Source: a virus
Virus record (IMG/VR): IMGVR_UViG_3300037882_004947
Span: 1-46,353 of that record
DNA length: 46,353 bases
Reading direction: 5' to 3' (one strand)
The notes under the pieces are model-generated. The model had not been told where the DNA came from, ran no database searches, and worked only from the letters and a program-made list of their open reading frames with translations. Of this stretch, positions 1,586-25,450 are shown piece after piece. The first letter of the stretch is position 1; every line of letters begins with the position of its first letter. The position numbers and the translations under genes are program-made.

Positions 1586-1628
1586 GTTGCCACGCGCGGA
1601 GGTGTGAAGCTCCAACGTGCGTTCGGGA

Positions 1629-1663
1629 GGCCGGTGTTCGAAAGACACCGGCCTTTCGTCTTT
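1629..1663 (+). terminator. Rho-independent terminator between ssb and recA
   Basis: A perfect 9-bp stem (1629-1637 with 1645-1653, GGCCGGTGT/ACACCGGCC) with a 7-base loop is followed directly by TTTCGTCTTT. It lies 44 bases after the SSB stop and about 20 bases before the recA start. It should end or attenuate transcription coming from the SSB gene, so recA probably also has its own promoter, which I could not identify. Confidence 0.8.
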
Positions 1664-1682
1664 CCAATTTGAAAAGGTGAGT

Positions 1683-3569
1683 ATGTCGAAAACGAATGAT
1701 AAAAAAGCTGTAGTGACTGCGGCGGGAGCGGCGGCGATTGCTGACATGGTGCGTAAGGAGCACGGGCAGAATTCCGTGATCATGGCGAATTCGGGAGTTG
1801 TCGACCGTGTGGCGACCATCCCTTCCGGCGCGTTGTCGCTGGATGCCGCCATGGGTTTGGGCGGGTACCCGCGGGGGCGCATCGTTGAAATCTACGGGCC
1901 GGAGTCGTGCGTGGTTGGTTCCACGTTCATTCAGTACGAGGTTCGTCTACCGGATGGGCGTCGCGCCAACCATAAGGGAGGTTCGATTGAGAGACTCTGG
2001 GAGAGGTTCAACGGAGCGAAACCCACCGGCGATGCTCGCGGCAAGTACTTGCGCGTTTCGACATTGGGCGCGGAGTTTTTCTGCGCTTCGATTAATGAAG
2101 AAGATCGAGTGTTTCAGAACCGCATCATCGACGTTGTGAAGCTGCCTGCCCGCCCGGTGTATGAGTTGCGCACGTTGGGCGGGCTGAGCATTACGACTAC
2201 AGCCGAACACCGGTTTTTCAACGGTACGCGGTACGTGCGTTTGGGCGACCTGGAGCCGGGGGACCGCGTACTGGTTCACAATAACACTCCCTATCGCGTT
2301 GAAAACGATCTCCCGCCCAAACAAGCTTCGCGCGCCTACGTGTACGTTAAACATCATCCGGTGGCGGGCACCAAGGTGGTCAACGCGCGCATCTCCCGCA
2401 CTTCAGACGAGCGCCGCCTGTACGCCTACAAGCGTTTGTTGCTCGCGCGCGCGACTATTGAGGCGCAGATGAACGGATTGGCTCTTTCGGAGTACGAAGA
2501 GCGTTTGAACGCGGGCAACTTGGAGGGTTTGCTCTTCTTGGACCGCGACGATCAAGTTCACCACATCGACGAAGACGAGGGCAACGACGCTCTCGAGAAC
2601 CTGGTGGTTCTCCCGGCGGCGGAGCATTCACGTATGCACGCGCTGGAGAGGCACAACAACCTCCGCTATGTGGCGGTGGAGGACATCGTTGAGGCCATCA
2701 TCCCGGCCGGCGAGCAGCCCGTGTTCGATCTCAAGATGCAAGCACCGTTCAACAACTACATCGCGGATGGTTTTGTCACGCACAACAGCGGCAAGACGAC
2801 ACTGACGTTGCACGCGATTGCCAACGTTCAGAAGGCGGGAGGCGTGGCGGCGTTCATTGACGCGGAGCACGCGCTGGACCCTCAGTACGCGACCAACGTG
2901 GGGGTGAACATGAATGAGCTACTGCTGACCCAGCCCGACAACGGGGAGCAGGCGTTGGATGTTACAGAGACGTTGGTGCGTAGCGGGGGCGTCTCGCTTA
3001 TCGTTATCGATTCGGTGGCGGCGCTTGTTCCGAAGTCTGAGCTGGAGGGGGACATGGGCGACCCGCAGATGGGTGTGCACGCTCGTTTGATGAGCCAAGC
3101 CCTACGCAAGCTCACTGCGTTGGCCGGAAAAACTCAGACGTGTATCATCTTCATTAACCAGCTGCGTTCCAAGATTGGCGTGATTTTCGGGAGCCCCGAA
3201 GTCACAACGGGCGGCAACGCGCTCAAGTTCTATTCGTCGATCCGTATCGATGTGCGGCGGCGCGAGCAGTTGAAAGACGGAACCGAGCCGATCGGAAACA
3301 GTACCCATATCAAAGTGATCAAAAACAAGCACGCTCCGCCGTTCAAGGAGGCGGATCTGGAGATCGTTTGGGGAAAGGGCATCGACCGATATGCCGACCT
3401 CCTGCAAGCCGCGGTCAACACCGGGGTTATTACCAAGTCGAGCTCTTGGTACCACTACGGTGAGACCCGCATCGGGCAGGGCGCCAACACGGCGGCGCGC
3501 AATTTGGAGGCGAACTCGAAACTAGCTGAAGAAATTGAGGCGCTGGTTCGAAAGGACCTCGGTCTGTGA
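1683..3569 (+). CDS. recA: RecA recombinase interrupted by an intein
   Basis: 628 codons encoding two exteins (75 + 260 = 335 residues after splicing, close to usual RecA length) and a 293-residue intein. The N-extein ends IVEIYGPES and the C-extein resumes [15 protein letters not shown], so the intein sits inside the Walker A loop (GPES/SGKTT). The C-extein shows Walker B ([11 protein letters not shown]), the L1/L2 region and the RecA signature [20 protein letters not shown] followed by [15 protein letters not shown]. Without splicing the ATP site cannot form. The start ATG at 1683 has AAAAGGTG 4-11 bases upstream and follows the terminator. The product drives strand exchange and recombination-dependent replication with the UvsY-like and gp32-like neighbours. 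The next gene overlaps its stop by GTGA. Confidence 0.95.
1908..2786 (+). other. Intein with HNH homing endonuclease, inserted in RecA P-loop
   Basis: The 293-residue in-frame insertion begins with Cys ([12 protein letters not shown], splicing block A). It has a block B TxxH motif (ITTTAEH) and ends with block F/G '[10 protein letters not shown]', with the +1 residue Ser. All catalytic splicing residues (Cys1, block B His, penultimate His, terminal Asn, Ser+1) are present, so self-splicing is expected. Between the splicing halves, about RecA residues 291-322, lies [19 protein letters not shown] followed by EHSRMH, an HNH nuclease signature. It is therefore a full intein with an HNH rather than a LAGLIDADG endonuclease, and looks active by residue content. 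Confidence 0.9.
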
Positions 3570-7840: not shown

Positions 7841-8190
7841 TCATGGATATTCAGGCTGCGTCGTTGGAGGCAGCTCAAGTTGAAGTTCGAAAGAAGTTCC
7901 CGCGGCGCGCCAAGGCCTTTCTCGTAGTGGACACGCCCAACATGGTGCGCTCAGCGATTGCTCAGAAGCTCGAGAGGGCGAAGCAGAGCAAGCAGTACCG
8001 AGATCAAGCAATCGCGCTGCAAGGTGTCTTAGACGCTCTGGACAAGGGAGTGCGCAGCGGAACGCACTCGGCGCGCGTGGTTGCGGAGGCCATGCTGGCG
8101 CACGGCGATACGCGAACGGAGATGCACGACGGTTTTGCCTACATCCAGGTCGGGCAAGCTCCCCGCTGGTTGGTGTTTTCCAAGGGGTGA
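7837..8190 (+). CDS. Hypothetical protein
   Basis: 117 residues; ATG 7837 overlaps the preceding stop as ATGA (ATG 7843 is an alternative). A helical N-terminal two-thirds is rich in Ala, Arg and Lys (EVRKKFPRRAKAF, EKLERA-type segments), followed by a short beta-like end (FAYIQVGQAPRWLVFSKG). No family recognised. It is the last gene before a new promoter at 8170-8205, whose -35 lies inside this gene. Confidence 0.6.
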   Translation: MIMDIQAASLEAAQVEVRKKFPRRAKAFLVVDTPNMVRSAIAQKLERAKQSKQYRDQAIALQGVLDALDKGVRSGTHSARVVAEAMLAHGDTRTEMHDGFAYIQVGQAPRWLVFSKG

Positions 8191-9921: not shown

Positions 9922-11126
9922 TGCCTCGTTTACGTTTGGGTAAGAGCGTTTTCAGCGCTGCCAAGGAGCGCATCGCCACACTGATGCGGAGCGGGCACAA
10001 GGTCGTTGTGACGTTTTCGGGCGGCAAAGACTCAACGGTGTGTCTGGAGCTCGCGCTCATGGCGGCGCGTGAGACGGGCTACGGTGACGTGGACGTGGCC
10101 GTGCAGGACGAAGAGATAGCTTACCCCGGCACGTATGAGTTCATCGAGCGCACGGCGCAGCGCAAGGGGGTGAAGCTGCACTGGTACGTAATGCAGCAAC
10201 CCATGTTGAACGTGTTCAACAGGTTTGACCCGTACTGGTGGGTGTGCGACCCCCTGTTGAATCCAGGCGACTGGGTGCGCGAGCCGCCCAAGTGGGCGAA
10301 GTTCGTTGCGGACAAGAACCTCTACTTCATGGTGAATCCGGTACGTTTTCCCGTTTCGAGGGATACCGCGCCGGGCGAAGTGTGGGACCCAACGGACACA
10401 GCGCAGCGCCTGTGTGCGGTCATCGGGCTTCGCGCTTCGGAGAGCGCCAAGCGCTTGTTGGGTCTGTTCTCGTCGGGCGGTTACATCTCGGGGGCGAATG
10501 AGGCCGGGGTTCACCTGGTCCGCCCGATCTATGACTGGGGTGACGGGGATGTGTGGAAGTTCATTAGCGATCTGAAGATCGATTATAACAAGGCGTACGA
10601 CGTTCTGTACAAGATGGGCGCGCCCAAGTACCAGCTCCGCGTGGGTCCGCCGACGATGACGCGCGGTGGGATCAAGGGATTGGACATCGCTTCGCGCGCG
10701 TGGCCCAACTGGTTTGACCGCGTGGCGACCCGGGTTCCCGGTATTCGCACGGCAGTCCAATTTGGTGAGCGGGCAGTGATGCCCTACCGCCGCTATGGGG
10801 AGACGTGGGAAGCTTGCTTTCGTCGCGAGTGCTTGGGCCCGGATGTGCCGGAGTGGTTGAAGCAGCGCGCGGCAATTGTTGCGGACCACGCGGTTGCTGG
10901 ACATGCGCGGCACTCGACGCAGGCGTTTCCGGAGATTGACGGGTGCCGCCTGTGCGGCGTGCTCGGTAGTTGGAAGCAGGTAGCGCGCGTCATGTGGGGC
11001 GGCGACCCATACGGGCAAGGCGCTCCCAGCGTGCTCAAGTGCGTCGAGCCCGAGTTCTTCCGGCCAGGAGCGGGGACTTGGGGCGGTGAGTGGGCTAAAG
11101 GCAAGAACGTTAAGATCAACTTTTGA
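9921..11126 (+). CDS. PP-loop ATPase, PAPS-reductase family (IbrA-like)
   Basis: 401 residues. The PP-loop FSGGKDST lies at about 32-39, after a basic N-terminal helix. Downstream are 'AVQDEEIAYPGTYEF', 'GLRASES' and 'VRPIYDWGDGDVWKFI', all standard in PAPS-reductase-like N-type ATP pyrophosphatases such as the IbrA/DndC-type proteins of phages and bacteria. A C-terminal C-x2-C (GCRLCG near 340) may bind metal. These proteins adenylate a substrate; whether this one reduces sulfate, inserts sulfur or does something else cannot be told. Its adjacency to a ParB-like gene is the known ibrA/ibrB arrangement. Start ATG 9921 was chosen by the TAATG overlap. Confidence 0.85.
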   Translation: MPRLRLGKSVFSAAKERIATLMRSGHKVVVTFSGGKDSTVCLELALMAARETGYGDVDVAVQDEEIAYPGTYEFIERTAQRKGVKLHWYVMQQPMLNVFNRFDPYWWVCDPLLNPGDWVREPPKWAKFVADKNLYFMVNPVRFPVSRDTAPGEVWDPTDTAQRLCAVIGLRASESAKRLLGLFSSGGYISGANEAGVHLVRPIYDWGDGDVWKFISDLKIDYNKAYDVLYKMGAPKYQLRVGPPTMTRGGIKGLDIASRAWPNWFDRVATRVPGIRTAVQFGERAVMPYRRYGETWEACFRRECLGPDVPEWLKQRAAIVADHAVAGHARHSTQAFPEIDGCRLCGVLGSWKQVARVMWGGDPYGQGAPSVLKCVEPEFFRPGAGTWGGEWAKGKNVKINF

Positions 11127-11136
11127 GGTAGATTCT

Positions 11137-11970
11137 ATGAGTGAAATAACCGGACCGTTGTTGAACCAGGAAACCCGCAAGAAGGGCGAGAAGGCAGTTC
11201 GCTCAATCGCTCTCGAGCGTTTGCGTGTCGAGTATGCGGACATCGACTCGATCAAACCCAATAGCTACAACCCGAATCGCCAAGATGAGCGCGACTTCGA
11301 ATTGTTGCAGCGGAGCATTCGCGAGGACGGGTTTACGCAGCCTGTGGTTGTCCAAGCGGCGACGCGGGAGATTGTTGACGGGGAGCATCGTTGGCGCGCG
11401 GCGCGAGCGCTGGGTATGCGCCAGGTTCCCATCGTGCTGGTGGACATGACGCCCGAGCAGATGAAGGTGGCGACGTTGCGCCACAACCGGGCGCGCGGTA
11501 GCGAGGATGTGGAGTTAGGTGCAGCTCTACTCCGCGACTTGCGCCAATTGGGCGCGCTCGACTGGGCGAAGGATTCGCTCATGTTGTCGGATTCCGAGAT
11601 AGATCGCTTGATGTCGGATGTGCCGGTTGCCGAGCAGTTGGCAGGCGATAACTACGGCGAGGCGTGGGCACCGACCAAGGCTACGGTCAACGACATCAAA
11701 AAGCCCGGGGTCACGGAGTCTATGAGTGACGACGCGCGGGCGCAGGCGGCGGAGTTTCGCGAGAAGATGGCGGCGGCACCGAGTGACCAAGCGCGCCAGG
11801 CGCTCGAGTCGACCTACCGCGACAAGAGCCTGAAGATGCAGTTCAACTTCGTGGCGGAAGATGCCGACTTGGTGCGGCGCGTTCTCGAGCCCTCTCCCGC
11901 AAAGAAGATCTACGAGTTGTGTTTGGCCGAGCAGGCTCGCCGCGAACTGGACGCAGAGCTCGATGCCTAA
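11137..11970 (+). CDS. ParB-like nuclease-domain protein 1 (IbrB-like)
   Basis: 277 residues. The ParB/Srx-fold domain spans about 30-150: DIDSIKPNSYNPNRQ, then IREDGFTQPVVV, then the nucleotide-binding box G82-E83-H84-R85 (VDGEHRWRAARAL), then VPIVLVDMTPEQMKVATLRH. A linker and a C-terminal domain (MQFNFVAEDADLVRRVL) follow. It lacks the HTH and dimer domains of chromosome-partition ParB. ATG 11137 has GAGG ten bases upstream. It sits directly after the IbrA-like gene and overlaps the DNA methyltransferase gene by 8 bases. A second protein at 13312 is closely similar across the whole length. Confidence 0.85.
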   Translation: MSEITGPLLNQETRKKGEKAVRSIALERLRVEYADIDSIKPNSYNPNRQDERDFELLQRSIREDGFTQPVVVQAATREIVDGEHRWRAARALGMRQVPIVLVDMTPEQMKVATLRHNRARGSEDVELGAALLRDLRQLGALDWAKDSLMLSDSEIDRLMSDVPVAEQLAGDNYGEAWAPTKATVNDIKKPGVTESMSDDARAQAAEFREKMAAAPSDQARQALESTYRDKSLKMQFNFVAEDADLVRRVLEPSPAKKIYELCLAEQARRELDAELDA

Positions 11971-13311: not shown

Positions 13312-14082
13312 ATGTCAGTGGAAAAGAATAACAACGTGTTGGAAAACCTGGAGATCGATTACCTGCCGGTGGATTCGATCAAGCCGAACTCGTACAACCC
13401 GAACCGTCAGAGCGAGCATGACTTCGAGCTGCTATGCAAGTCGATTCAGGCGGATGGGTTTACCCAGCCCATCGTTGTGCTGAAGGAGAGCAAGACGATT
13501 GTTGACGGGGAGCACCGTTGGCGGGCGTGCAAGGCGCTGGGACACAAGGAGGTTCCCTGTGTGTTGGTCGACATGACCGAGGAGCAGATGCGGATTGCGA
13601 CGCTGCGTCACAATCGAGCGCGCGGTAAAGAGGTGCAGTCGCTCGCCGCGGACGTGCTTCGCAGTTTGGCAGCCGAGGGCGCCCTCGACTTCGCGAAGGA
13701 TGAGCTTGGGCTCGATAACACCGAAGTCTCGCGCTTGCTTGCCGACTCCCAGGCTATCGAGCTGGAGTCGTTGAATGCGGACGTAGGGGAAGACCTGCTC
13801 GGTCCGGACGGCAAGGGGTTGACCGATGGGGACCGAGAGACGGGCGTCGACACCGAGGCGGACCAGACCCGAGCCAAGGAGCGCTTGCTTGCCGCAGCCA
13901 AGTCGGCTGAGGAAAAGGCGATGTCCGACACGGATAGAAGTTACAGACTTACGCTGATGTACACCGAGACGGAGGCGAAAGTTGTGAAAGGTATTCTCGG
14001 TAGCCACAAGGCCGAGATTAGTGAGCGCTTGCTTCACCTTTGCAGGGATGAAGAGGCGCGGTTGAAAGGAGCAAGCGCATGA
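13312..14082 (+). CDS. ParB-like nuclease-domain protein 2
   Basis: 256 residues, an evident paralogue of the 11137 protein: both have 'DSIKPNSYNPNRQ', 'DGFTQP(V/I)VV', 'VDGEHRWRA' (here G66-E67-H68-R69), 'VLVDMT' and 'ATLRHNRARG'. The C-terminal domain (YRLTLMYTETEAKVVKGIL) also matches that of protein 1 in layout. The linker between the domains differs and is acidic (about 140-190). ATG 13312 has only a weak, very close purine stretch upstream. It overlaps the next gene as ATGA. Two intact copies in one operon may form a hetero-oligomer or bind different nucleotides. Confidence 0.85.
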   Translation: MSVEKNNNVLENLEIDYLPVDSIKPNSYNPNRQSEHDFELLCKSIQADGFTQPIVVLKESKTIVDGEHRWRACKALGHKEVPCVLVDMTEEQMRIATLRHNRARGKEVQSLAADVLRSLAAEGALDFAKDELGLDNTEVSRLLADSQAIELESLNADVGEDLLGPDGKGLTDGDRETGVDTEADQTRAKERLLAAAKSAEEKAMSDTDRSYRLTLMYTETEAKVVKGILGSHKAEISERLLHLCRDEEARLKGASA

Positions 14083-17617: not shown

Positions 17618-17679
17618 ATTCGACACCGACGACACTTTTAACACTTGCAACTGTCGCGAACCCATGCGATAGTTAGTTC
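17618..17679 (+). promoter_or_regulatory. Repeat promoter, copy 1 (leaderless)
   Basis: Conserved upstream ATTCGACAC and ACTTTTAACAC boxes, TTGCAA at 17645-17650, 17-bp spacer, GATAGT at 17668-17673, six bases, then ATG 17680. Upstream box, -35, -10 and distance to ATG match the other copies. CTGTCG...CGATAG is an imperfect inverted repeat over the spacer and -10. Confidence 0.7.
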
Positions 17680-18494: not shown

Positions 18495-18555
18495 TTCGAC
18501 ACCGACGACGCTTTTTACACTTGCGAAGTCTATCGATCAATGCGATAGTTTGATC
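18495..18555 (+). promoter_or_regulatory. Repeat promoter, copy 2 (leaderless)
   Basis: Upstream TTCGACAC and CTTTTTACAC boxes, TTGCGA at 18521-18526, 17-bp spacer, GATAGT at 18544-18549, six bases, ATG 18556. CTATCG and CGATAG, separated by seven bases, form an inverted repeat across spacer and -10. Confidence 0.75.
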
Positions 18556-18774
18556 ATGAACAAGCAAGACCTCGTAACGATGACCCTCAACCAAACCCGG
18601 CAAAACGCTTTGGTTGAGGCCGCAGGATTGGATAACGCTCAGCAGCTTCGCACGTTGAGTTCTTTCGACCTGCGTAAGGCAGCTTCCAAGGCTGCCTCGA
18701 TCTTGAACAAGCTTGGGGTTGTACATCCCAAGGGCGTGCGATGGTCTGCGGACAAGGTTCTCACCACGTTTTGA
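18556..18774 (+). CDS. Small helical protein behind repeat promoter 2
   Basis: 72 residues beginning MNKQDLVTMTLNQTRQNALV. Helical throughout with a basic C terminus (FDLRKAASKAASILNKLGVV). It begins at the predicted transcription start. Function unknown; a DNA-binding role is possible from charge. Confidence 0.6.
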   Translation: MNKQDLVTMTLNQTRQNALVEAAGLDNAQQLRTLSSFDLRKAASKAASILNKLGVVHPKGVRWSADKVLTTF

Positions 18775-19147: not shown

Positions 19148-19200
19148 TGAAAAACATTCTTGTGGATTGCGATTACTCTCAGCTTGAGGAGTTGCGATGA
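19147..19200 (+). CDS. 17-residue mini-gene with polymerase-like motif (doubtful)
   Basis: ATG 19147 overlaps the upstream stop (TGATG), and its own stop overlaps the next start (ATGA), so it fits neatly into the gene chain. The product contains DYSQLEELR, close to the family A DNA polymerase motif A 'DYSQIELR'. It may be a relic of a polymerase gene, a leader peptide or chance. Confidence 0.3.
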   Translation: MKNILVDCDYSQLEELR

Positions 19201-19397
19201 ATGTGGATGACTGCCGCTACTGTGGGCACAAGGCTAAGGTGCACGCGTTGCGCCGAGGCAACTATCAGCGTACGGGCGACAATTACCAGGTGACGTGCAA
19301 CGGTTGCAGATGCCGCGGGCCACTGGTGAAGGATTCTGAGGCGAAGGCCGTGGAGGCGTGGAACGCGATGCAGCGGGGCGAGACCTGCTTTGGATGA
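19197..19397 (+). CDS. Lar-like zinc-ribbon protein
   Basis: 66 residues, ATGA start. CRYCGHKA...VTCNGCRCRGP then AVEAWN is the standard Lar/restriction-alleviation-like pattern: C-x2-C, about 25 residues, C-x2-C, G, then '..A...WN'. Members are common in phages; Rac-prophage Lar modulates type I restriction-modification, but most homologues are untested. Placing it in an anti-restriction role is inference. Confidence 0.65.
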   Translation: MNVDDCRYCGHKAKVHALRRGNYQRTGDNYQVTCNGCRCRGPLVKDSEAKAVEAWNAMQRGETCFG

Positions 19398-19632
19398 GCT
19401 CATCGTTCGCGAGCGGCGCAGCCGGCTTCACCATATGTCTGAAAAGAAATGGACGGCGGCGTACTGCGCCCCCTTCCAGCAGGCGATGCGGGCGTTGTTG
19501 CCTGTATGCACCGATGGGGACTGTTTTCTTTCCGGGAGCGCGTTGCACGTGGGGCCCTGCGTGCCGTGTGAATGCGGGTTGGAGCACGCTATAGACGAGT
19601 GCCCGGAAAACTATCTAGGGAGCGACGAGTGA
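19390..19632 (+). CDS. DECP-family Cys/His protein, copy 1
   Basis: 80 residues from TTG 19390 (ATG 19435 would give 65). It has CAPFQQAMRAL, then C-x4-C-F-LSGS-x2-H-V-G-x-C-x2-C-x-CG-x2-HAIDECP-x2-Y. Six Cys and two His fit one or two zinc ions. The same module occurs in genes at 23669, 23931 and 25040, so this is a four-member family within 6 kb. No outside family recognised. Linked to the next gene by TGATG. Confidence 0.6.
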   Translation: MDELIVRERRSRLHHMSEKKWTAAYCAPFQQAMRALLPVCTDGDCFLSGSALHVGPCVPCECGLEHAIDECPENYLGSDE

Positions 19633-19928
19633 TGAGCGACGAGGTTACCTACGAAGGGTGCGAGCAGTTTGTTGGTTGGACCGTTACCCTCATTCCGATG
19701 ACCGCAGGCGAGTTTGGGGAGCCGGGTTACAGTCTCGACTGCCCCGGGTACAAGCGGGTGCACCTAACCCCGTCCAAGCATGACGTGTACATGCTGCAGC
19801 AAGAGGAGCGTGACGGGAGTGTGACCGAGGGGCGGCGTGCTTGGGTGCACAATCGCTCGCCGGATTGGGTCGAGGATGGCTGGCTTGTCGAGTGGCTGAA
19901 GCACGGTTTGTTGAAGCGCGTGAAGTGA
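19632..19928 (+). CDS. Hypothetical protein
   Basis: 98 residues from ATG 19632 (TGATG overlap). A beta-rich start (EQFVGWTVTLIPMTAG), a central 'HDVYMLQQEERDG' and a C-terminal Trp-rich helix (DWVEDGWLVEWLKHGLLKR). No family recognised. It is followed by the 273-base non-coding region. Confidence 0.55.
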   Translation: MSDEVTYEGCEQFVGWTVTLIPMTAGEFGEPGYSLDCPGYKRVHLTPSKHDVYMLQQEERDGSVTEGRRAWVHNRSPDWVEDGWLVEWLKHGLLKRVK

Positions 19929-20139
19929 GCGAAGGGGTTTCGAACCCTCCAGTCTGTTGAGCTATCTCAGGTAATGCTGTTGCGCGGGACGATGCAGGGT
20001 CCCGTTAAACGCAGGGGATTGACCCTGAGTCGAGCGAGTATGGGCGGCCGTGCTCGAGCCGTACCGCAATGACCTCGGCAACTTGTGCGCACGCCGGTGA
20101 GAAGCCGGTCGGTAGCTCAACAGACTGGAGGGTTTGAAC
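19929..20139. repeat. Non-coding region framed by a 26-bp inverted repeat
   Basis: No gene is seen between 19929 and 20201. Bases 19939-19964 and 20113-20138 are inverted copies with one mismatch in 26 (22 contiguous matches), flanking 148 bp. The arm, read 5' to 3' on either strand, contains TAGCTCAACAGACTGGAG, which resembles a tRNA D-arm (TA-GCTC...GAG), but no full cloverleaf follows. Smaller hairpins can form inside (for example GGGAC/GTCCC near 19987-20003). Possible readings are a panhandle RNA, remnants of two tRNA-like halves, or a small non-autonomous element. Confidence 0.6.
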
Positions 20140-20201
20140 TTTCGACACTCGCGACGCTTTTTATACTTGCGAAGTCTATCGATCAATGCGATAGTTAGGT
20201 C
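20140..20201 (+). promoter_or_regulatory. Repeat promoter, copy 3 (leaderless)
   Basis: TTTCGACAC and CTTTTTATAC boxes, TTGCGA at 20167-20172, 17-bp spacer, GATAGT at 20190-20195, TAGGTC, then ATG 20202. CTATCG-N7-CGATAG inverted repeat present. It begins just after the 26-bp inverted repeat. Confidence 0.75.
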
Positions 20202-20360
20202 ATGAACAGCAAGCTGAGCAAGACCGCGATCAAGAACCCGAAGTTCAGGATTTCCGTTTACTGGGCCGCGCTCGAGACGTGCACCACGGACGCTCAAGAA
20301 AAGTGCGTTCTCGAGCAGATTGAAGCTACGGCTCGGGTCTTGGCGCGAGGGCGCTGGTGA
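20202..20360 (+). CDS. Small protein behind repeat promoter 3
   Basis: 52 residues beginning MNSKLSKTAIKNPKFRISVYW, then helical (EKCVLEQIEATARVLARGRW). It begins at the predicted transcription start and ends in a GTGA overlap with the following gene, so it may serve as the leader frame for it. No family recognised. Confidence 0.55.
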   Translation: MNSKLSKTAIKNPKFRISVYWAALETCTTDAQEKCVLEQIEATARVLARGRW

Positions 20361-20863
20361 GCTCGCTTAAGGAGTCGATCGTGCAAGTTCAAATCTCGAA
20401 AGAAGGGCGCCGCTACTACCTGCTGGGTAACACCTACGCTATCAAGGATGCGCTTCGTGCAGCCGGTGCGAAGTGGGACCGGGAGCGCGGCGCTTGGTGG
20501 ACGAGCAAGCCTGACGTGGCGGCTCGTTTTGAAGAGCAGGTGCGAGAGAAGTCTGCGGCGCTTGAAGCGGTGCAGGCAGCAACGGCAAACGAGCCGCGAA
20601 GCGCGGTGCGCGGGAACACTTACCCTGTGCGCGAGGCGTTGAGGGCGCTTGGTGGAACGTGGGATGCCGCAGGCAAGGTGTGGGTTGTCCCTGCGTCCAA
20701 AGAGGCGGAGGCCAACGCGCTGGTTGCCGCTGCACCGAAGTCGACCTTTAAGCGACCTTCGCCCGATGGTTACTATCGCAGAGGCGGGCAGACCTTGGCG
20801 CGAGGGTGTGCGGACTGTTCCCGGCTAGGGCGGATGTGCGCGCAGTGCGAGTTCGATTCCTGA
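20357..20863 (+). CDS. Protein with two GNTYPV/WD-type repeats and a Cys cluster
   Basis: 168 residues from GTG (GTGA overlap). Two copies of one motif: LLGNTYAIKDALRAAGAKWD...GAWWTSK (about 22-52) and VRGNTYPVREALRALGGTWD...KVWVVPA (about 84-115). I recognise this 'G-T-Y-x-V-K-x2-L-x2-L-G-(G/A)-x-W-D-x5-W' unit from other phage and plasmid proteins, where it is a small alpha/beta module of uncertain role. The C terminus has GCADCSRLGRMCAQC, a C-x2-C...C-x2-C zinc site. Confidence 0.6.
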   Translation: MSSLKESIVQVQISKEGRRYYLLGNTYAIKDALRAAGAKWDRERGAWWTSKPDVAARFEEQVREKSAALEAVQAATANEPRSAVRGNTYPVREALRALGGTWDAAGKVWVVPASKEAEANALVAAAPKSTFKRPSPDGYYRRGGQTLARGCADCSRLGRMCAQCEFDS

Positions 20864-20865
20864 AC

Positions 20866-20927
20866 TTTCGACACTGGCGACGCTTTTTATACTTGCGAAC
20901 CCTCTAGGGCCGTGCGATAGTTAGGTC
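20866..20927 (+). promoter_or_regulatory. Repeat promoter, copy 4 (leaderless)
   Basis: TTTCGACAC and CTTTTTATAC boxes, TTGCGA at 20893-20898, 17-bp spacer, GATAGT at 20916-20921, TAGGTC, ATG 20928. The spacer differs from copies 2, 3, 5 and 6 and carries CCCTCTAGGG instead of CTATCG, suggesting a different operator. Confidence 0.75.
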
Positions 20928-21212
20928 ATGAACAGCAACCAACCCGAAACGACCGCAACCATCCTCCCTTCGAAGAACGCACGTTTGGTGTCGCTTCGCC
21001 GTCGGTTTCGCCTCGCGGCGGAGCAGGTTCAGCCTGCTGTTCGCGCCAACTACGCGAGCGCGCAGGAGTACATTGCGGCGACGCAGGAACAAGCGCAGGT
21101 GCGCAAGGGAGTGCAGGCTCTCGCGATGCAGCTCATGAAGCTCGACCGCTCGAATCGCCTGTACTGGGAGCGCCAGTACGATCGCTACGACTCTTGTTAC
21201 TCGACGTTTTGA
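20928..21212 (+). CDS. Small basic helical protein behind repeat promoter 4
   Basis: 94 residues beginning MNSNQPETTATILPSKNARL, then a basic helix (VSLRRRFRLAAEQVQPAV) and a long Gln/Ala helix, ending with Tyr/Arg-rich residues (WERQYDRYDS). No family recognised. Confidence 0.6.
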   Translation: MNSNQPETTATILPSKNARLVSLRRRFRLAAEQVQPAVRANYASAQEYIAATQEQAQVRKGVQALAMQLMKLDRSNRLYWERQYDRYDSCYSTF

Positions 21213-21225
21213 AAGGACCCGCCCG

Positions 21226-21579
21226 ATGAAAGATTACGCATTGATCGAAGAGTTGAGTAAGCGGGCTTCCGCTAACCTAGGGCCCGCTTACTACGATGCT
21301 TTGCTTCTCGTGATTGCCGGCCTGCTGGGCGAGCCGGCGCGCGCTTGTCTCGTTGAGGCTTTTGTGCGGGGACCGCAGGACATGGCGAAGGTGCCCGGGT
21401 CGTCGACGCTGGTGAGGGCCTTGGTGCAGGCGGGGTTGCTTACGCGCTCTGCGTCGATGGCTTCCGACTTCATCGTCGGGGCGAGTGTGATGGGGAGGCG
21501 CCTGGTAGAGCGCGCGGGCTGGGTAACCCTGCAATCCGAAGCGCAGCAAGCACTCACGGAAGGGAAGTTCGATGAATAA
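21226..21579 (+). CDS. Helical hypothetical protein, winged-helix-like
   Basis: 117 residues; GAAAGGA precedes ATG 21226. Alternating helices, with 'AFVRGPQDMAKVPGSSTLVRALVQAGLLTRS' resembling a helix-turn-helix with a recognition helix, and a C-terminal helix. Overlaps the next gene by 8 bases. A transcription regulator is possible. Confidence 0.5.
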   Translation: MKDYALIEELSKRASANLGPAYYDALLLVIAGLLGEPARACLVEAFVRGPQDMAKVPGSSTLVRALVQAGLLTRSASMASDFIVGASVMGRRLVERAGWVTLQSEAQQALTEGKFDE

Positions 21580-22918
21580 TCAACCTGCAACTGTGGTTCT
21601 AACCCGGGCTCGAGCCCAAGCTATCTTGGAGGAGGCGCAGAAGCCAGTGGCTTTCCCGGCCTGCTGCGCTCCTTGGGTGGACCGAATCAAGTTCACGCCG
21701 GAGGAGAAGGTGGAGCTGAACCGGGCGTGGGACCTGTTGCCCGGGTGGACGACGCAGCTGATGGCGCTTCGGCGCATCGCGGAAGGCACGCTGGAGGTGC
21801 CTTCCGCGATTATCCAAGAAGAGTTCTGGTCCTGCAGGTTTTGCAAACACCGCAATGGCGGGTTGCAAGGCGAGGACGAAGGTTTGCGCTGTCGTGGTTG
21901 TGGTGCGCAGAAGGCTGACGAGCCGTGGGAGGCGCCTGCCGACGACTATGCGGCGCCGACTGTCACGGACCCGGAGCTGATAGATCGCGCCCTGGCGGGC
22001 GAGGTGTGGACGTGCGGGTACTGTTTCAACGTCGAGCGCAACGAGCACGACGCTTGCTCTGCTTGCGGCGCCGAACGGGCTCGAGCGATGCAGATACAGG
22101 CGGAGCGGGAGCACTGGCGGGAGCTGATGGGTTCTCGTGAAGAGCCGCCCGCATCGAGCGAAGCGCCAAGCCTTCCCGGCCTGCAAAAGTCACTGAACGA
22201 GGCGACGTGGTGGATTCTGGCCGGAGGTATTGGGCTCCTCTTGCTCATCGCGGGTTGCGTGTACTTCTTCGGAACGCATACGAGCACGGGCGTCGTGGCG
22301 CAGGTGCGCTGGGAGAGAACCGCTATCGTAGAAGAGCGGCACATCAAACACGGCGAGGATTGGGACGGGGCGATGCACGTCGGCGCGTTTGATACCGAGT
22401 GCGAGACGCGGCTGAAGCGGTATCAGAACTGCAACCCGCACAGCTGTCGCCCGCATCGTGTTGGCTACTCTTGCAATTGCTCAGGCGGCGACAGTTACGC
22501 TTGCGGCTCGAGTCGGAGTTGCCGCTCGAACGGGAATGGCTCTCGCACGTGTACGGACCGCACCAAGTACTGCACACATCCACGGCGCTGCGATACCTGC
22601 TACCGAACCGAGTATGATACGTGTTGGGATAGCTGCCCTGTTTACGATCGCTGGTGCCGCTACAGCTATCCGCAGTGGGAAGAGATTGCTCGAAAGCGTA
22701 CCGCGGGTAGCGATCTGCACCCGAAGTGGCCCGACCTTGCAGCGCATGGCGCGGACCAGCGGCTGCGGCAGTTGGAAGGGTACGAGGTGCACATCCGCGA
22801 CGCTGAGCACGATTGGAAGTTGGAGCCGGCGGGAGAAGTCGAGTTCCAGTGCTATGATGTCGGTACGACTCATCGCGTCGAGTACACTCGCGCAGGTAGC
22901 TTCAAGGTGAAGGATTGA
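21572..22918 (+). CDS. RanBP2-type zinc-finger membrane protein with Cys-rich outer domain
   Basis: 448 residues, the largest accessory protein. Two RanBP2-like fingers: FWSCRFCKHRN...LRCRGCGAQK (about 85-114) and VWTCGYCFNVERNEHDACSACGAER (about 145-169), each W-x-C-x2-C ... C-x2-C. A single transmembrane segment (WWILAGGIGLLLLIAGCVYFF, about 211-231) leads to a C-terminal domain with more than 15 Cys between about 265 and 365 (for example CSGGDSYACGSSRSCRS, CDTCYRTEYDTCWDSC). The fingers should be cytoplasmic and the Cys-rich part outside, if the usual orientation holds. Function unknown. It may be a sensor or surface protein made late in infection. Confidence 0.65.
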   Translation: MNNQPATVVLTRARAQAILEEAQKPVAFPACCAPWVDRIKFTPEEKVELNRAWDLLPGWTTQLMALRRIAEGTLEVPSAIIQEEFWSCRFCKHRNGGLQGEDEGLRCRGCGAQKADEPWEAPADDYAAPTVTDPELIDRALAGEVWTCGYCFNVERNEHDACSACGAERARAMQIQAEREHWRELMGSREEPPASSEAPSLPGLQKSLNEATWWILAGGIGLLLLIAGCVYFFGTHTSTGVVAQVRWERTAIVEERHIKHGEDWDGAMHVGAFDTECETRLKRYQNCNPHSCRPHRVGYSCNCSGGDSYACGSSRSCRSNGNGSRTCTDRTKYCTHPRRCDTCYRTEYDTCWDSCPVYDRWCRYSYPQWEEIARKRTAGSDLHPKWPDLAAHGADQRLRQLEGYEVHIRDAEHDWKLEPAGEVEFQCYDVGTTHRVEYTRAGSFKVKD

Positions 22919-22926
22919 TCTTGGCG

Positions 22927-23121
22927 ATGGCTGACCTCAGTAAGCTTGTTCGTTTTATTGCCGATCGCGAGGCGCCGATTCTCATGCACAGGATGGCGCA
23001 TGGGCGCACGCCCGAGGAGGAGGAAGTTCGACGCGTTTCAAAGTGCGGTTTGGCCGCGTGGCGCCTCGCTGTGAAAGAACGTGTGCGAGCTGAACGCATC
23101 GCGGAGGCGCTCATCGCATGA
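22927..23121 (+). CDS. Small basic hypothetical protein
   Basis: 64 residues from ATG 22927. TTG 22915, overlapping the previous stop as TTGA, is an alternative adding four residues and fits the local overlap style. Helical (LSKLVRFIADREAPILMHRM, AAWRLAVKERVRAERIAEAL). No family recognised. Confidence 0.5.
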   Translation: MADLSKLVRFIADREAPILMHRMAHGRTPEEEEVRRVSKCGLAAWRLAVKERVRAERIAEALIA

Positions 23122-23180
23122 GGAGCGCACACAGTGACGTGCAGTGTGCGGGATTTGAGTTGGCGAAAGGTGAACACTGA
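23118..23180 (+). CDS. 20-residue mini-gene (doubtful)
   Basis: ATG overlaps the stop of the previous gene (ATGA), and its TGA overlaps the next ATG (TGATG). The peptide starts MRSAHSDVQCAGFE. It fits the coupling pattern, but its length makes it impossible to tell from chance. It may simply carry ribosomes to the 23180 start. Confidence 0.25.
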   Translation: MRSAHSDVQCAGFELAKGEH

Positions 23181-23620
23181 TGAATCGAGAGTTCAAAGAA
23201 CGTGTGGAAATTGTTCTCAAGCGGCTGGACAACCAGCCGCAGATGGAGCTGTGCCGGGCATCGGCGGACTTGCTCCGCCAGGCGATGGCGGAGTTGACGA
23301 CGCGCGTCGAGCCAAGCAAGTCGCCTGCGGAGTTTGCGCTAGTTGTTCGGCGTGCGGGCGATGCTTGTCACGCTGCATTCTTGAAGTTTGGTACAGATTG
23401 GCGGCAGCTGGGGCAGGCCATTGAGCGGTTAGATCGCCGCTATCACGGTTCAAAAGAGCGAGTTTTGACGCCGGAGACCGTAGCAGATATCAAACAGGCG
23501 TTGGACCTGGAGTATCGGCTCACCGGGGACACGAAGATTGTTGCGCCTTTGGCGCGCTTTCTCGGAGTCGACCTCGACGATCCGGACGTGTTTGAACGCA
23601 CGGGTTCAAAGGTTGGCTGA
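23180..23620 (+). CDS. Helical hypothetical protein
   Basis: 146 residues; AAAGGTG precedes ATG 23180. Long helices (FKERVEIVLKRLDNQPQMEL, LLRQAMAELTTRVE), then a second half with LTPETVADIKQALDLEYRL and a short helical end. The second half could be a small HTH-like unit. No family recognised. Confidence 0.55.
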   Translation: MNREFKERVEIVLKRLDNQPQMELCRASADLLRQAMAELTTRVEPSKSPAEFALVVRRAGDACHAAFLKFGTDWRQLGQAIERLDRRYHGSKERVLTPETVADIKQALDLEYRLTGDTKIVAPLARFLGVDLDDPDVFERTGSKVG

Positions 23621-23668
23621 GCCTAATGTCTGCCCGGCGCTATCCCTCGATTCAAGGTAAGCCGCAGC

Positions 23669-23953
23669 GTGTCACTTCTATGGGTGTCTTGCGATGTTAA
23701 CGGGTTCAACGTTCGATCGTTCGTGATTGATGGCGAGGTGCATCGGCACGAGCAGATTCAGTTCGATCACGAGAACTACTGTGCGCCTTGGCAAGTTGCG
23801 TTGCGTAAGTTGGCCAATAACTGGTGCAACAACCCGGAGTGCACTCTTTCCGGCGGGTACGCTCATGTCGGGGAATGCGAACCCTGCGATTGCGGGTACC
23901 TGCACGCAGTAGATGAGTGCCCGAAGAACTATGAGCAACCGAGCGGACCGTAA
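23669..23953 (+). CDS. DECP-family Cys/His protein, copy 2
   Basis: 94 residues from GTG 23669. An N-terminal beta stretch (LLWVSCDVNGFNVRSFVIDG) not found in the other copies, then CAPWQVALRKL and the family module C-x4-C-T-LSGG-x2-H-V-G-x-C-x2-C-x-CG-x2-HAVDECP-x2-Y at the C terminus. The start is uncertain because no clear Shine-Dalgarno is present. It overlaps copy 3 by 23 bases, so copies 2 and 3 are a tandem pair. Confidence 0.6.
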   Translation: MSLLWVSCDVNGFNVRSFVIDGEVHRHEQIQFDHENYCAPWQVALRKLANNWCNNPECTLSGGYAHVGECEPCDCGYLHAVDECPKNYEQPSGP

Positions 23954-24230
23954 GAAGCGCCATTTGGCTCGCCTCAACGCGCAGGAGCACAATCAGCCCT
24001 GGCAGCGTTTGTTACGTTCCCTTTCAGGATTCGAGAATTTGTGCTGCAGCGCGAACTGTACACTTTCCGGGGGCTACGCTCACGTCGGTCCTTGCGTGGA
24101 CTGTGGGTGCGGTGTGCGCCACGCGGTAGACGAGTGCCCAAAGCGCTACGAGGAGAGACATGGCAAGCAAACAGAAGTTGAAGTTGGTGGAGGCGATGAA
24201 CAGCCACATCGGTGTGACGCTGACGTGTGA
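23931..24230 (+). CDS. DECP-family Cys/His protein, copy 3
   Basis: 99 residues from ATG 23931 (ATG 23913 in frame is an alternative). Basic N terminus (NRADRKKRHLARL), QPWQRLLRSL, then the family module with CTLSGGYAHVG and HAVDECPKRY, almost identical to copy 2 in DNA as well as protein across LSGGYAHVG. Unlike the others it runs on about 27 residues past the module, overlapping the next gene by 71 bases; the extension may be a chance read-through after duplication. Confidence 0.55.
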   Translation: MSNRADRKKRHLARLNAQEHNQPWQRLLRSLSGFENLCCSANCTLSGGYAHVGPCVDCGCGVRHAVDECPKRYEERHGKQTEVEVGGGDEQPHRCDADV

Positions 24231-24426
24231 CGAGGAGGGGCCGGGCGAGTTCCTAGCGAGCGTTTCGGGCGACCACTTAGTCACGGACGCCTGGGCGACG
24301 ACGCGAGGCACGGCAGTGCGTCGTGCGCTCGAGAAGTGGGCAAATGCCTACGAGACGAAGCACGGGCACGGCGCTGAACTGGATGACGATGGCGACCTGC
24401 CCGAAAACGACCCAAGCGCCGGCTAG
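24160..24426 (+). CDS. Small acidic hypothetical protein
   Basis: 88 residues. GAGGAGA lies just upstream of ATG 24160, a strong site that supports the start despite the 71-base overlap. 'GVTLTCDEEGPGEFLASVSGD' and 'TAVRRALEKWANAYETKHGH' are followed by an acidic tail (ELDDDGDLPENDPS). No family recognised; acidic tails are common in phage DNA-mimic or SSB-like proteins, but nothing more supports that. Confidence 0.55.
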   Translation: MASKQKLKLVEAMNSHIGVTLTCDEEGPGEFLASVSGDHLVTDAWATTRGTAVRRALEKWANAYETKHGHGAELDDDGDLPENDPSAG

Positions 24427-24435
24427 TGAGAGATC

Positions 24436-24783
24436 ATGAAGATTTACCGAATGATGGCGGAGTCGACGGACGCCGCGAAGGTAGTTGAGATGTCGCTTGC
24501 CTTGGTAGACGCGGGATTCAAGGTGAGCGTTGACTCGGTTGCGGAGCCCCTGGAGGTGACGGAACCCACGATGATGTTGCCCCAGCCAGACCTGTACAAG
24601 GTGGCGCGGGGGTTGGGGCAGTTCACCATTTCGCGCTTGGCCGACGTTAGTGGCCAGACGGTGATACAGGTACGCAACGTTTTGTCTGTATGGCGGCGCC
24701 TCAACAAGGTCGAGGAAGTGCGCTCGATTCGAGTTTCGGGACAGGTGGGTCGCGCCGTGAAGGTGTGGAGGTGCACGGCGTGA
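24436..24783 (+). CDS. Winged-helix regulator-like protein
   Basis: 115 residues. The C-terminal half, 'LGQFTISRLADVSGQTVIQVRNVLSVWRRLNKVEEV' followed by a basic wing (RSIRVSGQVGRAVKVWRC), is a typical winged helix with HTH 'ISRLADVSGQTVIQVRNVL'. The N-terminal half is a small alpha/beta region. GTGA overlap with the next, also winged-helix-like gene. Confidence 0.6.
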   Translation: MKIYRMMAESTDAAKVVEMSLALVDAGFKVSVDSVAEPLEVTEPTMMLPQPDLYKVARGLGQFTISRLADVSGQTVIQVRNVLSVWRRLNKVEEVRSIRVSGQVGRAVKVWRCTA

Positions 24784-25043
24784 GCAAGCGACGCGAACCG
24801 CGCCTATCTTCCCGGCACGAGCAGGCTTTGTTCCGGTTTCGCGTGGTGGACCTCCGCACCGCTTCCGTGCAGGACAAGGCTGCGCTGCGGCTCCTCAAGA
24901 TTGGCTATGTCGAGCACACAGGCAAGCGCGGCACCAGTTGGGTTGAGCTGCGCTTGACGGAAGCCGGGCGGGCGCGGATGAGGGCAGTGTTCACCGAGGA
25001 GGAGCTGCGCAGCGGGCGGATACAGGGAGTCGCGCAGTGGTGA
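24780..25043 (+). CDS. Winged-helix-like small protein
   Basis: 87 residues from GTG (GTGA overlap). 'SSRHEQALFRFRVVDL', 'QDKAALRLLKIGYVEHTGKRG' and 'WVELRLTEAGRARM' resemble the H-T-H and wing of MarR/PadR-type small regulators ('...L...G.(I/V)E......W..LT..G...'). The target is unknown. Confidence 0.6.
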   Translation: MSKRREPRLSSRHEQALFRFRVVDLRTASVQDKAALRLLKIGYVEHTGKRGTSWVELRLTEAGRARMRAVFTEEELRSGRIQGVAQW

Positions 25044-25450
25044 AGTTCTTTCCTTTGTCAGTCTCTCGCGTTGAGGCGCGACGCGTGCAGGAGAGAAACT
25101 TGCGCCGTTTGCTATTCCCATTTCCACGCGAGCCCTACAGCGGTGAACCGTACGGTTCACCGCACGCAAAGCCCCAAACGACAGCAGGGCACGATGTGCC
25201 GGAGGACTTCGTTGCCAGGTACGATCAACCGTTTCAGCGCATGCTGCGCTACGTCACCGGACAAAGCTGTCCAGACGGGCTCTGTACCCTTTCCGGCGGG
25301 ATGGGACACGCGGGGCCTTGCCAGTCGTGCGAGTGCGGGGACAAGCACGCTATCGACGAGTGTCCGCTAACTTACAGGGCGCGGGAGCGCGAAGCTGCGC
25401 GGTTTGTTGAGACGGCGCGGCGGAACTTCAAGTTGGGCGAGAGCGAGTAA
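25040..25450 (+). CDS. DECP-family Cys/His protein, copy 4
   Basis: 136 residues from GTG 25040 (GTGA overlap; GTG 25037 also possible). A basic, Pro-rich N terminus with a 24-bp DNA palindrome in the coding sequence, then DQPFQRMLRYV and C-x4-C-T-LSGG-x2-H-A-G-x-C-x2-C-x-CG-x2-HAIDECP-x2-Y, then a charged helix of about 30 residues. The longest family member. Its GAG-TAA end leads straight into repeat promoter 5. Confidence 0.65.
   Translation: MKFFPLSVSRVEARRVQERNLRRLLFPFPREPYSGEPYGSPHAKPQTTAGHDVPEDFVARYDQPFQRMLRYVTGQSCPDGLCTLSGGMGHAGPCQSCECGDKHAIDECPLTYRAREREAARFVETARRNFKLGESE
25140..25163. repeat. 24-bp perfect palindrome inside a gene
   Basis: GCGGTGAACCGT (25140-25151) and its exact reverse complement ACGGTTCACCGC (25152-25163) abut without a spacer. 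It lies in the N-terminal coding part of DECP copy 4. It could be a binding site for a dimeric protein or an RNA hairpin in the mRNA. Confidence 0.7.

Follow-up and report, generated by a model that had tools for sequence, protein, structure and literature searches.

Four related genes in two runs of small genes

The window analysed here is a whole IMG/VR virus record, a phage contig of 46,353 bases whose replication and packaging genes encode RecA with an intein, SbcC-like, ParB-like and PAPS-reductase-like proteins, a terminase and a portal protein. Four plus-strand genes of the window encode small proteins with a common core and are listed with the features next to them.

18521 to 18558, plus strand: promoter-like element (TTGCGA-17 nt-GATAGT-6 nt-ATG) that heads the gene run containing copy 1
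19197 to 19397, plus strand: Lar-like (restriction alleviation) small protein; Pfam PF14354, E 9.7e-7, above the curated cut-off; PHROG 599, E 6.2e-7
19390 to 19632, plus strand: copy 1, 80 aa; TTG start, alternative ATG at 19435; core PFQQAMRALLPVCTDGDCFLSGSALHVGPCVPCECGLEHAIDECPENY
20893 to 20930, plus strand: the same promoter-like element, heading the run 20928-25450 that contains copies 2, 3 and 4
23669 to 23953, plus strand: copy 2, 94 aa; GTG start; core PWQVALRKLANNWCNNPECTLSGGYAHVGECEPCDCGYLHAVDECPKNY
23931 to 24230, plus strand: copy 3, 99 aa; ATG start; core PWQRLLRSLSGFENLCCSANCTLSGGYAHVGPCVDCGCGVRHAVDECPKRY
25037 to 25450, plus strand: copy 4, 137 aa; GTG start, longer N-terminal extension; core PFQRMLRYVTGQSCPDGLCTLSGGMGHAGPCQSCECGDKHAIDECPLTY

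The TTG start of copy 1 sits inside the 3' end of the Lar-like gene, the first 23 bp of copy 3 are also the last 23 bp of copy 2, and copy 4 begins before the preceding open frame has ended. A second, in-frame GTG of copy 4 lies at 25040, the coordinate given for this gene in an earlier sequence-only reading. Copies 2 to 4 belong to one same-strand gene run and copy 1 to a separate one. Because the starts overlap, the genes lie on the same strand and promoter-like elements stand at the heads of the runs, both runs are probably operons, as far as gene layout can tell. The genes around the copies are mostly small and unannotated. At third codon positions the copies have a GC content of 0.62-0.75, close to the 0.69-0.78 of the long phage genes.

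Eight promoter-like elements were found on the plus strand, at 17645, 18521, 20167, 20893, 25477, 26717, 28324 and 31671, with the consensus TTG[CA][GA]A, exactly 17 nt, [GT]ATA[GC][TC], exactly 6 nt, and ATG; the boxes are constant and the spacer sequences variable. If transcription starts about 6-7 nt past the second box, these elements would give rise to leaderless mRNAs. Elements of equal spacing were also observed in two terminase-related contigs, L062 (1467, plus strand; 10061, minus strand) and L093 (130, plus strand).

Elsewhere in the window, the RecA-like gene (1617-3569, plus strand) has an apparent HNH-containing intein insertion (Pfam Intein_splicing, E 6.7e-8, with a score under the curated cut-off), and the plus-strand genes at 11086-11970 and 13312-14082 form a paralogous pair with 44% identity over 248 aa, the first of which matches ParB-like families. 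An inverted repeat, read from the sequence, lies at 19936-19965 and 20113-20140 (GGGTTTCGAACCCTCCAGTCTGTTGAGCTA and TAGCTCAACAGACTGGAGGGTTTGAAC), and ARAGORN called no tRNA.

A conserved Cys/His core

The four copies have in common a core of about 49 residues, P-[FW]-Q-x3-R ... C-x4-C-x-LSG-x3-H-x-G-x-C-x2-C-x-CG-x2-HA-[IV]-DECP-x2-Y, in which six Cys, two His and the P, Q, R, LSG, G, CG, HA, DECP and Y positions are invariant. The genes form a real family of homologous small proteins. Their local alignment scores against one another were 146-184, compared with means of 26-29 for composition-matched shuffles (z 24.8-28.5), copy-versus-copy BLASTP gave E-values of 9.7e-14 to 8e-19, and a DNA pattern for CG-x2-HA-x-DECP occurred exactly 4 times in the window, with 0.00 occurrences expected from shuffles. 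The common signature from which the sequence-only reading had started is thus present in all four genes. Searched with a profile, the complete contig yielded the 4 copies and no more, and an all-against-all comparison of the window's open reading frames showed this family to be the largest by copy number.

Core identity among the copies is 40-56%, and the flanks vary between copies while the core is conserved, as had been noted for their N- and C-terminal parts. The invariance of the six Cys and two His extends to a homologue in another virus (described below), so that all eight residues are unchanged in five of five sequences. This conservation suggests that the copies bind zinc. Redox chemistry or disulfides could also make use of six conserved Cys, but the two His are equally conserved and the C-x2-C-x-C-G-x2-H-x4-C spacing suits metal ligands better, and we consider a non-zinc use of these residues very improbable.

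Searches of family libraries and structures

The view that no known family carries this signature is borne out by the libraries searched. The four copies had no Pfam match at E <= 5, NCBIfam gave nothing above noise, the PADLOC anti-phage defence profiles gave 0 matches at E <= 5 for the five members, and a PDB sequence search gave no match to the family. PHROG matches at E 0.045-0.33 were rejected as being at noise level. Two AlphaFold models, both of low confidence (mean pLDDT 63.6 and 59.2), showed a helix at P-x-Q, strands around C-x2-C-x-C-G and a helix at ECP; Foldseek on the first of these low-confidence models returned nothing from the PDB and no viral match of significance. Literature searches on small zinc proteins of phages gave no usable result.

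A single relative in another phage contig

The search for the motif across phage and bacterial sequences that the sequence-only reading had proposed yielded one outside relative, at 7867-8175 of IMG/VR contig 3300042691_048840 (L010). It was first found by an IMG/VR pattern search and is matched by the four-copy profile at E 1.7e-22. The homologue resembles the copies in its core identity (about 40-50%), its eight Cys/His, P-W-Q-x3-R and HA-x2-ECP. It differs in being single-copy, in having WECP instead of DECP and LSLG instead of LSGG, and in lacking the final Tyr. The signature first described therefore stands for the four window copies, whereas its D of DECP and its G after LS are not family-wide.

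The patterns H-x-G-x-C-x2-C-x-CG-x2-H and C-x-CG-x2-H-x3-ECP returned 22 and 14 stretches from IMG/VR, respectively, and in both cases L010 alone was a relative. A later alignment-based search found no relative beyond it, and tblastn against phage and plasmid records gave no credible member; a match in Mycobacterium phage FF47 (E 10) lacked the Cys/His pattern. Eleven stretches with H-x-G-x-C-x2-C-x-CG-x2-H-x4-C were obtained from 84,980 species genomes, and their translations were read and judged to be chance occurrences. The Lachnospiraceae stretch among them (L052, E 0.0016), itself selected by pattern, covered part of the core only. A profile search covering two phyla (398 genomes of the first, 396 of the second) turned up just two short matches, each broken by an internal stop. 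Since the pattern scans require exact spacing, distant members could escape them.

Over 458 residues, the terminase of contig 3300042691_048840 is 49% identical to that of the window. A BLASTP comparison showed the two contigs to share only the terminase and the four-copy family, the remaining hits being antisense frames of these genes. Thirty-six contigs with related terminases were fetched, one of them being 3300042691_048840, and whole-record searches of the other 35, many of which are short fragments, gave no family member. For this reason, the family seems to be an accessory gene with a patchy occurrence in a single lineage of uncultured phages.

In its own phage, whose terminase is related to that of the window, the homologue lies some 0.9 kb upstream of the terminase gene, and this would suit zinc-stabilised accessory or assembly factors that partner phage proteins and have no host target, the several copies being dose or partner variants. 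Against such a phage-internal function, the family is absent from the 35 other related-terminase contigs (many of them fragments) and in the window 10-16 kb separate the copies from the terminase gene, and we judge it improbable.

Selection on the core

Between copies, the dN of the core is 0.43-0.68 and its dS is 1.2-2.7 or saturated. Core dN is well below dS, and the domain is therefore conserved by selection: the core is under purifying selection. Diversifying roles had been proposed from the multiple divergent copies; the conserved core lends this proposal no support, and only the flanks vary. Each copy may counter a host factor of its own. The copies are about as distant from each other as from the outside homologue (39-48% core identity), which implies that the duplications are old or that the family evolves fast.

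A proposed role as small zinc-stabilised adaptors

We favour, at a probability of roughly 45%, a reading in which the genes encode small structural-zinc adaptors that act on host or phage proteins, a paralogous domain of about 49 residues being combined with variable flanks that choose the partners. We infer a fold, a mode of expression and a protein-protein role for the copies. The domain would open with a short helix (P-[FW]-Q-x3-R) followed by the eight Cys/His; given the invariance of this set, these are most likely the ligands of two structural zinc ions, and the second half (C-x2-C-x-CG-x2-H-x4-C) may resemble a zinc-knuckle or treble-clef element. The copies are probably co-transcribed with the other small genes of their long runs, in an accessory region that has the replication genes on one side and the packaging genes on the other. 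The products would be compact adaptors that bind proteins of the host or the phage and serve host takeover or counter-defence, and the variable flanks would give each copy its own partner.

The segment CxxCxCGxxHAxxECP is close to a CCHC knuckle with one residue added, and the proteins might instead bind ssRNA or ssDNA through C-x2-C-x5-H-x4-C, or regulate transcription of the phage gene runs. The basic N-terminus of copy 3 and the net positive charge of copy 4 agree with this, and the window's repeated promoter set could need a regulator. Yet four of the five members have an acidic core (net charge −2 to −6, with one to three K/R each; the core of copy 3 is +1), the lack of Pfam matches at E up to 5 includes the CCHC models, and the PDB sequence search returned no knuckle structure. 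The acidic cores favour protein binding over nucleic-acid binding, which we regard as unlikely.

For the adaptor role, a location in an accessory gene run, next to a Lar-like gene, points to host interaction, and the Lar-like gene just upstream of copy 1 lends mild circumstantial support to a host-interaction cassette. Host-takeover and counter-defence factors commonly come from orphan families of small proteins that have multiplied in the accessory regions of phages. Since the neighbourhood is mostly unannotated, the host-interaction role draws on one Lar-like neighbour and on this general knowledge of accessory regions. A stronger version, in which the family is a new zinc-domain fold of one uncultured phage lineage and each of its four copies neutralises a distinct defence or regulatory protein of the host, appears quite improbable. 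With five members known, the family supplies a clean, testable motif, which will matter only if a target is found.

Comparison with known families

The Lar-like family (PF14354/PHROG 599) resembles the copies in consisting of small Cys-rich phage proteins, and its member adjoins copy 1. None of the four copies matches it; the neighbour at 19197-19397 alone does, and this match in the same search indicates that the test for Lar membership works.

CCHC zinc knuckles have the spacing C-x2-C-x4-H-x4-C. The C-terminal half of the copies has a similar layout of a Cys pair, a Gly and His-x4-Cys-Pro, but the nearest spacing is C-x2-C-x5-H-x4-C (or C-x-C-x3-H-x4-C), one residue longer, and the zf-CCHC model is among those without a match. 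The copies also differ in having four extra conserved Cys/His that precede or interrupt the knuckle-like segment. The family is itself absent from the libraries searched, and its members are of a familiar kind, that of small Cys/His phage accessory proteins.
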